Below, in pieces: positions 1,519 through 58,846 of a stretch of DNA of 64,000 nucleotides. The position numbers and the translations under genes are program-made. The notes below the pieces were generated by a model that did no database searches, was not told the DNA's origin, and was given only the letters and a program-made list of their open reading frames with translations. Every line of letters begins with the position of its first letter. Within the stretch, counting starts at the first letter, position 1. Origin of the DNA: Fuerstiella sp. (GTDB taxonomy: Bacteria > Planctomycetota > Planctomycetia > Planctomycetales > Planctomycetaceae); contig JAKVAZ010000007.1 of the NCBI GenBank assembly GCA_022447225.1, positions 298,475 to 362,474 on the forward strand, read 5' to 3'.

Positions 1519-2622
1519 TCAGGGGAGCTTGGTAACCCTTCGCCCATGGTTGAGGGGAATAATGACACGTCCGTCTTTAGTTCCAACGGGTACCAGCATC
1601 CGCTTTGTCTGCTCACGATCAGTTCCGCCATAACGAGTGACCTGCAAAACAACGTTTCCCGTTACCAGTCGACCTCCAATCTGACGGAGAACAACTTCAT
1701 AGTCACCTTTGAGAGCTTTCTGACAGCGATACTGTTCTGTTTTCCGATCGTTATCGATGCCTGACTGTTTCGTGAGCAGGCCCCCATTTCCGGTGATCTG
1801 TGTTTTGCGATCGCAGGTCACGTTATCAGGTTCGACGACAGCCAGATCGATGTCGGCATTGCCGGCCCACCGTGCGGTGATGATCAGATCCCATGTCAAT
1901 GATTCCGTGAGTTCATTCGCTATTCGACTGCTGAATGCCCGTTGACCTGATTTTTGTGCTGCGGCACGCAGATCCCTGATGACCAGCTCTGCTTCCTGGT
2001 GGAGTTGATCGGCATCACTGGTCCAGACGTGTCTAAGAATACCCGTTCGGGACCATAGAATATGTTTTTTGTCTCCGGAACGGTCAGCAATACTTTTTGC
2101 CATTTGCCATGTTTCAGGCTGCCACGGGTTCTGTCGTGTTGCTTCTGCACACAGTTCCATTGCCTGGTCCCAGAATTTCAGCCGCGATGACAGCGAAGCA
2201 GCAATCAGTATCTGGGTAAGATCGCCTCCCGCAAAGTCGACCTGGGACGCCAATGCTCGTTCAATGTCCTCCTGTGGCCGATCCGCAAGGCGCATTTCCA
2301 GCGGAAGGATTGAATACATCCAGGGCTGTGCCTGGTTGTTTCTAATTGCCGCCTGCATTCCTTCGACGGCAAGATCGAAGTCACCTGTATCGCTCAGACT
2401 CTCGACGATCGCTCTCATCACCAGCGAAGAAGTCTGTACGTCAGTGAGCACCTGATTCCATTTTTCGACCGGTGTTCCCTTCGCAGCCCTGACCTGCCGA
2501 ATCAACTCTTTCGCGCGAAAGTCCGCCGCAGACTCCCGATTGAGGGACTTCTGCGGCGGTATTCGTTGTTGCCGAAATGCAACCGGTCTCAGAAAAGACG
2601 GAGTTGGTTTTAGCGTCGTTGT
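1519..2622 (-). CDS. C-terminal part of the frameshifted VWA protein (TPR-like plus beta-sandwich region)
   Basis: This frame continues the VWA gene after a -1 shift at the A9 run (2622-2630). It encodes about 367 residues without a good start of its own (no Shine-Dalgarno at the only upstream Met). The first two thirds are helical and repeat-like (for example QPWMYSILPLEMRLADRP and PWQPETWQMAKSIADRSGD). The end resembles a YfaP/DUF2135-type beta-sandwich (WAGNADIDLAVVEPDNVTC, then GGLL and YEVVLRQIGG). From memory, full-length planctomycete VWA proteins of this type carry this segment in one polypeptide after a Gly-Met-rich linker, which is why I treat both pieces as one gene. Function unknown; probably extracytoplasmic because the N-terminal part has a signal peptide. 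Confidence 0.7.
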   Translation of the reverse strand, partial: TTTLKPTPSFLRPVAFRQQRIPPQKSLNRESAADFRAKELIRQVRAAKGTPVEKWNQVLTDVQTSSLVMRAIVESLSDTGDFDLAVEGMQAAIRNNQAQPWMYSILPLEMRLADRPQEDIERALASQVDFAGGDLTQILIAASLSSRLKFWDQAMELCAEATRQNPWQPETWQMAKSIADRSGDKKHILWSRTGILRHVWTSDADQLHQEAELVIRDLRAAAQKSGQRAFSSRIANELTESLTWDLIITARWAGNADIDLAVVEPDNVTCDRKTQITGNGGLLTKQSGIDNDRKTEQYRCQKALKGDYEVVLRQIGGRLVTGNVVLQVTRYGGTDREQTKRMLVPVGTKDGRVIIPLNHGRRVTKLP

Positions 2623-5093
2623 TTTTTTTTGAGACTGCTGGCAGTGATTCCGTCCGGATCGGTCTTGAGGAGCATCTCCCATTCGGGAGGCACACTAAAC
2701 ATGCCGCCGCCCATACCGCCGCCCATCATACCACCGCCCATGCCACCGCCCATCATGCCGCCGCCCATCGGAGGAATCGGTGGAATCACAAGATCACCGA
2801 CCTGATAGACACGGGTCACCTGAGAGTTTTCTGAGTTGGCCTCTTCGACCGTGGTTATCGTCATGACATCGTCCTGAATCACATAAGTCAGTGCCGGATC
2901 ATCGGTCTTTCCAAAAATCAGTTTGAGTGCAGTCCGAAGAGGAATGCCTTCCAAATTGATGTCTGAAACAGTTACGTCGTCCAGGGATGAAATGTCGACG
3001 AGTTCCAGGGATACGGTGTCTGGCCAGATTGTCATACGGAAGTCAGAACCGGAACCGCCGCCAACCGCGCCCCATGTGGTTGTATAATGGTCCGCCAGAA
3101 ACTCAAGGACTTCTCCGAGCGATGTCTCACCTCGGTAGTCCAGACGGGGGATCGGTTCCTTGAGCATGCGATTAAGCCAGTTCTCCACTTTACTTTCCGA
3201 GTGCAGTGACACTGCTTCGTAACGCGGTACTCGTGTCAGGGTCAATGCACGCCAAACATCGGTGGGTGGATACTGAACCGGGGGTTCGTCCGGGAACGGA
3301 ACATGTGACAATTCGACCTGGTAGAGTGTCTCCAAAAATCGGTCGGCTCGAAGTTCCCGCAGGCGACGAGCTTTATCAAGCTGGCCGGCAGCTTCTGCGA
3401 CCATCAGCGCCTGAGTGGCCGGTCCGTTGCCGGGTTTTTTCTCAATTGCCACTCGAGCGGCCGCTTCTCCGTCTTCGAACGCGTCAATATCACCATGTCT
3501 TCCCCGTTCCAGTGATCCCCGAACCTGGTCGAGAATGGTCTGGAGTTCTGTTTCCAGGACAGCCTGTTGAGTGACCAGATGCTCCTGTGCTTCATTGGTT
3601 GCCTGTCGTACTGCGTTTTCCTGCTGTTTACGAGCAACCTGGTCTCTGCGGTTCTGAACACCGGCAATCGCCTTGATAACTCGGCGTTCCAGTTCGTCTC
3701 GTGATTCAGGCGCCACATCGTGGGCGGATCTGATTGTTTCCAGCAGATCTTTCAACAGGGATTCCGCATATTCCGGACGCTGTGCAGCGTATTCATTGGC
3801 GTCGCTGATCGTCGTAGCGACTGCCTGTTGCAGCTTTTGTGTGCGGACGCGAACCATGGTTTCCAATTCATTGAGTGATCGGTTCTGATCCCCGCCTGCG
3901 GTAAAGCCATCATCTGCAGAATCCTGTTTAGCAAACGGAACACTCGCCCTGAGAGAGGTCAGGATTGTGTTGACCTCTAAATTGTTGGGATCCAGCTCAG
4001 CTGCCCGACGTACAATGTTTTCCGACTGCTGTGTGCGTTTGAGCCGCTGAAGTCGTGACGCTACATCTGCAGACGTACTGATCAGCTTCTGGAAATCAGC
4101 TTCCGCCTGGTCCAGCATTTTCCTGGATGCCACAGGAGTGACAATCCCGTTTGTATTTTTCGTCAGTTCATAAAGATGGCGAATCTCAGCACCACCTGTT
4201 TTATTGACAACATTATTCCACTGCACAGTGCGTCCGTTCACGAGCACTGCTTCAACCGTAGTGACCTGACTCGATTTTCTGAGTCCGAAGGCCATGGTAT
4301 GGCGATCGGACCTCAACCATAGTTTCCCGTTCACACTGACCACTGGTGAACCATCAGCGGAAAGCTTCTGAATTTGTAATCCGGGAGACCGCAGTGACGT
4401 TGCGATGCTGGCAGCAAATTCGGGCTGAGTTGAGAGGAAATTTACGATACCGCCGGTGAGGTTGGCGACGGTAGCCGGCAGGTCCGGATTTGTTTTTGGT
4501 CCCAGAATGACCGAATGTACAGTCACCTGAGCTTCCGTCAGTTGTTTGGTAAGTTCTGCGATTTCGTCTGCTTGGACGGTATGGAGGGCAGAAATCCCGT
4601 CTCCGATCCATAGTAATGAAGTTGCAGTCCCGTCGGCCTGACGAATTATGCCTTCAAGGGCAGATTTCAGATTTGTGGCTCCGAGCGGTGTTCGTAGTTC
4701 GAGTCGTCTGACTGCTTGGGCGAAGTCTGATGAAACGGGAGTTGAGAAGCCGCTGGTGAGTGACTGACAGGTCGTATCCATTGCCATCAGCTGAATCCGG
4801 TCTGTCTGCGGAAGTTGTTCCGCGACATTCCTGACCAGTGTCAGTCCTGCTTCCCGAACGTAACCTACCTGACTGGCGGACGTGTCAATCAGCAGGATAT
4901 GTCGGTTAATCTGTTCTTTAGCGGGTCTGCTATCTCTTAATGCTAATACCTGCCATGAATCCTCATGGACAGAATATTGTTTCACCAGTGCCGTAGGTTC
5001 GGCATTCTCTGCCTCGGCCGGCTGGCAAAATGAAGTCAAACCTGTTGTGAGTAACAGTCCTGTCAAACAGGCCGAGAATTGCAACTGCCGCAT
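2610..5093 (-). CDS. Exported VWA-domain protein, N-terminal part (frameshifted at A9)
   Basis: The chosen start at 5093 gives 827 residues and follows GAAGGGGA; it begins directly with a signal peptide (MRQLQFSACLTGLLLTTG...AEA), while the longer frame from 5168 would bury it. A von Willebrand A domain follows: MIDAS DTSAS, a later Thr in TPLGATNL and Asp in WIGDGIS are all present, so metal binding is plausible. Then come a long charged helical region (roughly residues 320-600), a beta-rich segment resembling secretin/TonB short N-terminal folds (TTTWGAVGGGSGSDFRMTIW...), and a Gly-Met linker made of repeated GGGM units. Translation stops 12 bases after CTC-AAA-AAA-AAA, and the next frame carries the rest of the protein. 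It may act as a surface scaffold; no enzymatic role is visible. Confidence 0.85.
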   Translation of the reverse strand: MRQLQFSACLTGLLLTTGLTSFCQPAEAENAEPTALVKQYSVHEDSWQVLALRDSRPAKEQINRHILLIDTSASQVGYVREAGLTLVRNVAEQLPQTDRIQLMAMDTTCQSLTSGFSTPVSSDFAQAVRRLELRTPLGATNLKSALEGIIRQADGTATSLLWIGDGISALHTVQADEIAELTKQLTEAQVTVHSVILGPKTNPDLPATVANLTGGIVNFLSTQPEFAASIATSLRSPGLQIQKLSADGSPVVSVNGKLWLRSDRHTMAFGLRKSSQVTTVEAVLVNGRTVQWNNVVNKTGGAEIRHLYELTKNTNGIVTPVASRKMLDQAEADFQKLISTSADVASRLQRLKRTQQSENIVRRAAELDPNNLEVNTILTSLRASVPFAKQDSADDGFTAGGDQNRSLNELETMVRVRTQKLQQAVATTISDANEYAAQRPEYAESLLKDLLETIRSAHDVAPESRDELERRVIKAIAGVQNRRDQVARKQQENAVRQATNEAQEHLVTQQAVLETELQTILDQVRGSLERGRHGDIDAFEDGEAAARVAIEKKPGNGPATQALMVAEAAGQLDKARRLRELRADRFLETLYQVELSHVPFPDEPPVQYPPTDVWRALTLTRVPRYEAVSLHSESKVENWLNRMLKEPIPRLDYRGETSLGEVLEFLADHYTTTWGAVGGGSGSDFRMTIWPDTVSLELVDISSLDDVTVSDINLEGIPLRTALKLIFGKTDDPALTYVIQDDVMTITTVEEANSENSQVTRVYQVGDLVIPPIPPMGGGMMGGGMGGGMMGGGMGGGMFSVPPEWEMLLKTDPDGITASSLKKKQRR
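2622..2630 (-). other. A9 run with slippery heptamer at frameshift point
   Basis: On the coding strand the sequence is CTC AAA AAA AAA CAA CGA CGC TAA. A_AAA_AAA fits the X_XXY_YYZ slippery pattern. Either a -1 ribosomal slip or one extra A in the transcript or genome moves translation from the VWA frame into the open downstream frame. A genuine mutation or a one-base homopolymer error in the assembly would look identical. Confidence 0.75.
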
Positions 5094-5557
5094 TGAAACG
5101 TCCCCTTCACTCAGATCGAGAAAGGCAGGGATCGGTGGTACGGACCGTGGTCGGTCCGGAATCATCAAACATTCTATAGTCCTAGTCGGACACGTTAGAA
5201 AGGAATTCCCTGCAAAATCGTGCGTTCCTTGCCCGAATTAAACGACCGGCCTGCTGATGGCGTCGAAGTCCTTTCCCTCGTCAAAGTCACCCGTTTCGGT
5301 GTGTCAGCATGTTTTGCCTAAACGGAGTCTTCATCACTATTCCAAATTTCTCGCAAAACCTGCTGACAGCCGCGTGTGTTGAGACGTTGACTCTGCTTTG
5401 TGTTCCATGAGTTTGACGATTGGGTCAAGTTAACAGACCTGACGACTCGATCCCTTGTTTACGGAGAATGGAGTCTCACGGCAACAGATTCGCGGTCGCG
5501 GATCTCAAATATCGGCAGAGCTGAAGGGACTGTTGCTCCTCGGGGGGGAGAACACAG
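5094..5557. other. Divergent intergenic region
   Basis: 464 bases between the divergent VWA and metalloprotease genes; it should hold promoters for both. I see no coding frame with codon-like content and no clear -35/-10 pair. The right end contains a G-rich Shine-Dalgarno at 5542-5549 for the downstream gene. Confidence 0.5.
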
Positions 5558-7069: not shown

Positions 7070-7079
7070 AAAAAAAAAA
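7070..7079 (-). terminator. T10 tract after lipoprotein gene
   Basis: Ten consecutive T on the minus strand, about 14 bases past the stop of the 7094-7579 gene, preceded by a short weak palindrome (ACCGGTACCGT). The stem is poor, so this is only a possible intrinsic terminator between two convergent genes. Confidence 0.3.
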
Positions 7080-58400: not shown

Positions 58401-58846
58401 AACAGGGTGTCTCCTGTGGTCAGCACGATTCTGAAGTTATCGATTGTTGGAGGAGCCTCATTACCGGGTTCAAAAGACACGGTTGAAAGTACAGAGCGTT
58501 CCAGACGCAGCGGAGTTGCAAATATGCTGGACTCCCAGAGAACTTCATCCGAAGTAATTCGGATCAGTTTTCCCGGCAGAGAGTCTCCGGACGCCCACTG
58601 CAGCACCGCATTATTGTCATCGCCGCGGACCACAGCAGCAAAAAAAAAGAAAACAATGACAGCAGTCGGCACCAGGATTCGTGGGCTGAACACGATGTCG
58701 TTGAACTGGATGTTTATCGATGAGCCTGAGGTAAGCAGACGAGTTTCTTCAGATAAAGTTCCGGAACGGGAATTTATCCGCGGACCGGAATTATGTGGCA
58801 ATCCGGTCCGTCTGTGATCAACTGAGATTCGGCGGCTATCGTTCAT
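55493..58846 (-). CDS. Giant exported protein with C-terminal TlpA-like thioredoxin domain
   Basis: 1117 residues. A signal anchor lies near residues 58-75 (VPTAVIVFFFFAAVV). The body is beta-rich with repeats of a segment resembling SMb/lectin-like planctomycete domains (WASGDSLPGKLIRITSDEVLW, LTTGDTLFGRLKSLDSDHLT, LIAPNGDVLRGRLIAVHEDD). The last 150 residues are a TlpA/ResA-type thioredoxin: APDFALPQVNGKTFRLSDHAG, FWASWCVPC (redox CxxC), then YQVRGIPHSLIIGPGG with the cis-Pro. It may shuttle electrons to periplasmic cysteines. Its ATG overlaps the upstream stop by 11 bases, so it is translated with the cyclase-repeat protein. Confidence 0.8.
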   Translation of the reverse strand: MNDSRRISVDHRRTGLPHNSGPRINSRSGTLSEETRLLTSGSSINIQFNDIVFSPRILVPTAVIVFFFFAAVVRGDDNNAVLQWASGDSLPGKLIRITSDEVLWESSIFATPLRLERSVLSTVSFEPGNEAPPTIDNFRIVLTTGDTLFGRLKSLDSDHLTLSSTRHGEVRIPRILVAGIQRVNQEGLIYLGPAGRSGWSGPNIEKNWDEQTDGSLTSSTDDALLTLGLRTEKKLSVEIILSFVRRPEFVLALGPDDETSIRLETWGDALVVCSQLEFLEIQTMDNDTTQIHLLLYLDMESERLLVCSPQGEVLATHETPNPKQMPRTLSLRNGSGTVTLQHLRIERWNGNSVGSLAAGRTGIQQVDGTVHHGTVVSITDRMIRLQNESGETGIPVELTGSLEISTDIPKESTASVKDTSRIKWRDGGALCGHIINMTETVATIRPAWSEQPISANPQGIQVIDLGGKASAVSAPDELIVGGRLLHGHLVVDDGEQPLTWKPTGSADGIPLRSGDDAVVTRSTKTSPVVIDPQKYPDIIYLRNHDVIPCRLQSITGNTVMLASPFTSAKQFFSNDIQALELSSTQQRSSLGFADSQWKRIRGKIKQEGGQVQLISGSFGSENGIPGDRLNFDAQWPPDQWTFMKVHLFADHLHQPKTASACTLIFGQNVVAVTQEFDRQNPFATIQNQKLRIPTKGHSAQIQLVTNRGNLKVLINGQLLRTFPLNRAGAGNEGVLFELLQSGTGQFFGARSRNGATTPTKTVRHLTLSNLQTGPTGGVSAQKFIDEESRLHTLTIPRFRRNDPATHALIAPNGDVLRGRLIAVHEDDVEFESRLEVFHFPRERVAAVIWIQNPEKNRNALSTLKKERPSRVDSSMMQTVLHGGYLVSMTPAHVTDGLLHGESNVLGNCSVPANAISRLHLGNPNERKHTAVYSQWRAKHAVEPDWNIANNNGGNSTDSKLVGRAAPDFALPQVNGKTFRLSDHAGRVVFLDFWASWCVPCAASLQDYADTTKRFDESELVFVAVNIEDSPQTIRAFLKEHQLDVRVAVDRGSAVASQYQVRGIPHSLIIGPGGIIEYVRIGYEPDAAGEIQRVVREILSGTWKRQDSVGPDSNTAAE

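Follow-up and report, generated by a model that had tools for sequence, protein, structure and literature searches.

Do the two reading frames that meet at a run of nine adenines (A9) in a Fuerstiella sp. contig represent a broken gene, two separate genes, or a single gene whose halves are joined by slippage? The question arose from a reading of the sequence alone, which described a VWA gene split at the run by a -1 shift and weighed slippage against mutation and assembly error. In the window (i.e., the whole 64,000-nucleotide stretch that was analyzed), the split and the -1 shift proved real, the run appearing as T9 at positions 2622 to 2630 with the gene on the minus strand. Comparison with relatives favored slippage: two families retain A9 out of frame, and the frame beyond it is under constraint. 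From these comparisons, we consider it likely that the two frames (ORF1 and ORF2) form one gene with programmed slippage at A9, most likely by RNA polymerase; slippage and an associated termination step are inferred. The literature searched contained no previous description of this gene or of planctomycete slippage. The features of the junction are as follows.

2610..5093, minus strand: ORF1, exported VWA protein, short form (827 aa), with its ATG at 5093
2680..2682, minus strand: ATG in the ORF2 frame, inside ORF1, 49 nt upstream of the run
2622..2630, minus strand: A9 slippery run (T9 on the plus strand), read AAA AAA AAA in the ORF1 frame
2610..2612, minus strand: ORF1 stop (TAA), 9 nt past the A9 run
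1519..2622, minus strand: ORF2 in the -1 frame, 367 codons past the run plus the stop at 1519-1521

The junction in the window

Rereading the sequence confirmed that the 827-aa ORF1 stops shortly past CTC-AAA-AAA-AAA, its 3' end on the minus strand being CTC AAA AAA AAA CAA CGA CGC TAA. From the N to the C terminus, ORF1 comprises a signal peptide (judged by eye), a VWA domain (Pfam VWA_3 match, 7e-14), a helical middle, a Gly/Met-rich tail, and a KKKQRR end. The -1 frame was open for 367 codons beyond the run, as claimed, and ended at 1519-1521. It would supply the C-terminal part of a long form, i.e., a linker, TPR-like helices, and an eight-stranded beta domain; its predicted structure (pLDDT, 89.9) has TPR-like helices arranged in a row and, behind them, eight beta strands. 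The statement that this frame has no start of its own was inaccurate, since the ATG at 2680-2682 would give a formal 387-aa ORF. Two relatives from the same genus, L003 and L004, do not have that ATG; it lacks conservation and probably does not serve as a start. The trans-frame peptide sequence predicted across the junction in this organism is KKKTTTLKPTPSFLRPVAFR.

An out-of-frame run conserved in two families

Of 170 genomes from the GTDB family of the window (Planctomycetaceae) that were searched, 158 contained ORF2. The junction set was built from 120 fetched regions and 30 loci from an earlier search, which yielded 145 readable junctions; these represent 52 genera and include closed isolate genomes. 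One genome (G113) was left out of the count, its VWA part being missing and its ORF2 having its own signal peptide. The run and ORF2 were out of frame in every one of the 145 junctions. The run was A9 in 138, A8 in 5, and A10 in 2, and A9 was present in at least one species of 51 of the 52 genera, with the phase of the run relative to the ORF1 frame varying among loci. In 144 loci, no more than 30 nt separated the end of the run from the ORF1 stop. The shift to ORF2 was -1 in 140 junctions and +1 in 5 (three genera), the latter found in all three species of genus g4, in one species of g26, and in g62. Genus g26 was mixed, the two sister species having a -1 relation. A further +1 candidate from the script score, L069, was rejected, as it was -1 by hand with an upstream frame error in that metagenome-assembled genome (MAG). 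Members of the family include Gimesia, Thalassoglobus, Schlesneria, Fuerstiella, Planctomicrobium, and Planctopirus limnophila.

The same arrangement was observed in a second family (Isosphaera pallida and relatives), where A9 with a -1 relation occurred in 30 of 30 cases (29 of 29 junctions read plus Isosphaera pallida ATCC 43644 [G042]) and the ORF1 stop came a few codons past the run. Elsewhere in the class (Pirellulales, Gemmataceae-like families, and others), a single fused ORF of ~1200-2000 aa without the run was the usual state. The sequence-only reading had named relatives that lack the homopolymer and keep a single frame as a case that would refute slippage; such relatives exist, but only outside the two slippage clades. 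When the ORF2 domain was placed in a tree, the two slippage families each came out as a single clade, separated by fused families, which implies either two origins or an old state that was lost in some lines.

The run is kept by selection, since seven closed relatives have only 2 to 8 exact A9 runs per 5-8 Mb and AAA makes up 43% of the other Lys codons in these genes. No other coding-strand A9 run was found in 390 kb of the same loci. In G009, one of the two A9 runs in the genome is this junction; the second (L252) was considered as another split gene and rejected, the ORFs there being antisense-like.

These counts also bear on phase variation, in which replication slippage would alter the run length in the DNA and thereby toggle the full-length protein. 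One genome, G164 (L103), fits that picture, with A10 and an open full-length frame of 1351 aa; it was the sole in-frame full-length member among the matches listed, the others being ~350-660 aa. Phase variation should, however, produce a broad mix of run lengths rather than nine adenines in 138/145 and 30/30 junctions, and G164 is a single case among ~175 genomes, although strains within one species were not compared. Moreover, the A10 of L022 and L063 leaves the frames apart. We therefore regard phase variation as very improbable. In G164, slippage at A10 would shorten, not lengthen, the protein.

Many MAG contigs broke off on the upstream side of the junction, a few hundred bases short of it and inside or close to the Gly-repeat region (e.g., L061, L062, L074, L097, L108, L109, L127, and L146, among others), so that the gene is frequently cut in metagenome assemblies.

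The downstream frame is coding and appears to be entered at the run

Across 122 linkers, the ORF2 frame contained no stop in 8,403 codons, compared with 252 and 414 stops in the other frames. The dN/dS values of ORF2 ranged from 0.04 to 0.18 in ten species pairs, and by this measure ORF2 is under purifying selection. In 16 loci, the ORF2 frame opens no more than 3 nt from the run start, mostly via an overlapping TAA, so that a shift into it must take place in the run.

Assembly error, sequencing error, or recent inactivating mutation deserved consideration because homopolymers are error-prone and the genome of the window is in 33 contigs. Such events do not account for the same out-of-frame A9 in many independent assemblies and closed genomes, which was the outcome of comparing the locus across relatives, nor for the low dN/dS values. 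The family-wide pattern refutes error or mutation as a general explanation, and we attach practically no weight to it.

ORF2 could instead be a gene in its own right, translated from its own start codon and preceded by an ordinary ORF1 terminator. The terminator-like hairpin described below, which lies between the ORF1 stop and the ORF2 body, would suit such an arrangement, and stand-alone ORF2 genes with their own signal peptide do exist (see below). Against independence, the linker lacks stops in the ORF2 frame, 101 of the 122 linkers have no ATG, and 24 have none of ATG, GTG, and TTG. A start codon of these three kinds in the ORF2 frame before the run was present in only 2 of 145 family loci. 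An independent ORF2 would also leave the conserved A9 without a role and, at these junctions, would have no signal peptide. This explanation is highly unlikely in our estimation.

The stand-alone genes with their own signal peptide were found in family f16 genomes (L233 and L234) and in G113 (L048/L164), i.e., the beta domain is exported alone in some lineages. The G113 copy retains the ORF1 tail sequence FNNKSIKDRKKK.

Polymerase or ribosome slippage

Run length, mixed shift direction, and the absence of ribosomal stimulators favor slippage by the polymerase. Mixed shift direction among orthologs is a mark of transcriptional realignment (PMC3711429); the survey of frame transitions in that study included only two planctomycete genomes. 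The junction shows those marks of a slippage gene that sequence can reveal: a conserved run of ~A9 lies at the junction, the downstream frame is reached solely by a shift, and the direction differs between orthologs. An mRNA population with a variable number of adenines, the remaining mark, is a prediction here. A Shine-Dalgarno-like stimulator was not enriched upstream of the run (matches of 4 or more in 12%, versus 17% in control windows). Likewise lacking was a stem-loop of the Escherichia coli dnaX type, which would be placed 5-9 nt past the slip site; the folding peak lay 40-80 nt past the run.

The competing explanation is programmed -1 ribosomal frameshifting on A_AAA_AAA, the E. coli dnaX mechanism, with every mRNA carrying A9. 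The slippery heptamer pointed out in the sequence-only reading is indeed contained within the run, and it is available in every frame phase seen; in addition, 140 of the 145 shifts have the -1 direction. However, nine adenines are kept although the heptamer needs fewer, the Shine-Dalgarno signal is not enriched, the conserved hairpin ~60 nt past the run is beyond the reach of a usual stimulator, and three lineages have a +1 relation. Ribosomal frameshifting accordingly seems unlikely, but it remains possible, since A_AAA_AAA is also a ribosomal slippery heptamer and no transcript, ribosome-profiling, or proteomic data are available. With no RNA data, RNA polymerase can be named as the slipping enzyme only by inference, yet we hold that inference with considerable confidence.

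In most Planctomycetaceae examined, including the genome of the window, dnaX also carries an in-frame A9/A10 with nearby stops in the other frames, an arrangement shared with Thermus dnaX. These dnaX loci are L282-L311, of which L300 belongs to the genome of the window (G000:C11); some family f5 genomes have them too.

A conserved hairpin behind the first stop

A second element lies behind the ORF1 stop.

2523..2559, minus strand: terminator-like RNA hairpin, CCGCCGCAGA-AGTCCCTCAATCGGGAGT-CTGCGGCGG, about -28 kcal/mol
2515..2522, minus strand: weakly T-rich tail after the hairpin, ACTTTCGC (3 T in 8)

In the window, the hairpin (score, 12.3) starts 50 nt past the ORF1 stop, within the ORF2 coding sequence; its T tail is poor here and stronger in many relatives. 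The hairpin, the +1 lineages, the in-frame A10 exception, and the A9/A10 runs that these genomes carry in dnaX all go beyond the sequence-only reading.

Folding z-scores were flat along the locus except in windows 40-80 nt past the run, with a mean of -2.7 at +60. We scored hairpins as the best ungapped inverted repeat within the first 150 nt past the run and defined strong hairpins as those with a score of at least 12. The mean best score was 15.6 after the run; the corresponding values were 8.4 for the windows at +300 nt and 8.1 for shuffled sequences. Scores of at least 12 were reached in 79% of loci, compared with 2% and 5.5%, respectively. By genus, strong hairpins were present in 41 of 52, versus 0 of 52 in the control, and in the second family they were present in 76%, versus 7%. 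The hairpin is GC rich, with a median arm of 16 nt. It starts at a median of 49 nt past the ORF1 stop (37-82 nt in the central 80%), a position that, as judged from the sequences, is outside the footprint of a terminating ribosome. The 8 nt after the hairpin contained 3.61 T, versus 1.68, and only 32% of loci had at least 5 T in 8.

Among widely divergent sequences, 123 paired changes were compensated and 17 broke a pair; because hairpins were chosen as the best per window, this count is biased toward paired changes. In one genus, 93% of cells were paired, and covariation exceeded that of every shuffle.

Strong hairpins were found in only 1 of 12 fused homologs and behind only 2 of 22 dnaX runs. 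The in-frame A10 relative (G164) had a weak hairpin (11.0) without a T tail, and the stand-alone ORF2 of G113 scored 9.5. These are settings in which such a hairpin would be harmful or useless. The hairpin thus tracks the split and not the protein family. After the ORF2 stop, a hairpin was present in only 11%. By the ungapped score, 11 of 52 genera, including that of P. limnophila, lacked a strong hairpin. Given these genera and the imperfect T tract, a hairpin gate might be incomplete or have been substituted by something else, and the hairpin could terminate weakly or serve another purpose. An Rfam search of positions 2000-5300 gave one subthreshold match, to a viral microRNA family, which was clearly due to chance.

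Proposed mechanism and comparison with known systems

On a transcript with nine adenines, translation would end at the ORF1 stop just past the run and release the short exported VWA protein. One extra adenine, or an equivalent net change, would place the ribosome in the -1 frame, and the resulting long form would gain the TPR-like helical region and the beta domain at its C terminus. The split would thus yield two versions of one exported protein that are one whole module apart. The level of slippage and the sizes of the two products are inferred.

We tentatively propose that the junction acts as a frame-sensing attenuator, although we would not rate this as the likelier state of affairs. Slippage would set the frame, ribosome coverage of the embedded terminator would decide downstream transcription, and the short and long mRNAs would match the proteins. 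On an unslipped message, the ribosome would be gone at the ORF1 stop, the hairpin would form, and transcription would tend to end. On a slipped message, a ribosome translating the ORF2 frame would melt the hairpin or prevent it from forming, and the polymerase would continue to produce a long mRNA and, from it, the long protein. Both the termination step and this coupling are inferred from the arrangement of the run, stop, and hairpin. In trp/phe leader attenuation, the position of the translating ribosome decides whether the terminator hairpin forms. The proposed logic is similar, but those systems use a leader, whereas here a structural gene and a slippage-set frame would be involved.

Several slippage systems resemble parts of this arrangement. 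In Citrobacter rodentium tssM1, a secretion gene, transcriptional slippage on A11 was measured at ~20% (PMC4256274). As in the planctomycete gene, the poly(A) run lies shortly before a stop, and slippage adds a C-terminal extension beside a short form; unlike it, tssM1 has A11, its description includes no terminator, and it was reported only from a few enterobacteria (PMC4256274). Thermus thermophilus dnaX likewise combines a sense-strand A9, transcriptional slippage, and a cellular gene with two expected protein lengths, but the unslipped message there gives the long form and not the short form (PMC5009743, PMC1088944). The dnaX runs of the planctomycetes themselves differ from the VWA junction in having no hairpin behind them. 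Transcriptional slippage in Shigella spa13 gives a 112-aa extension and thus also lengthens the C terminus, in a different gene and with no post-stop hairpin described in the available portion of the source (PMC5009743). In the Roseiflexus IS630 element, slippage likewise coincides with an RNA hairpin and terminator features, but there the hairpin immediately precedes the run on its 5' side and is what drives slippage (PMC5009743). The planctomycete hairpin, ~60 nt 3' of the run, cannot exist while the polymerase sits on the run.

If slippage is confirmed, its conservation as a programmed event in a nonmobile chromosomal gene would be unusually deep, extending family-wide in two families of planctomycetes, and the site would be one that combines slippage with a terminator-like hairpin shortly past the first stop. 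Annotation divides the gene in two and thereby overlooks the long form in these species. The site is carried by both P. limnophila and I. pallida and offers a natural test of transcription-translation coupling in planctomycetes.

Two other homopolymer runs were seen in the window. A T9 run at 58640-58648 (minus strand) lies early in a frame that is open for >1,050 further codons, within an apparent signal peptide; slippage there would truncate the product. An A10 run at 7070-7079 lies between two convergent genes.
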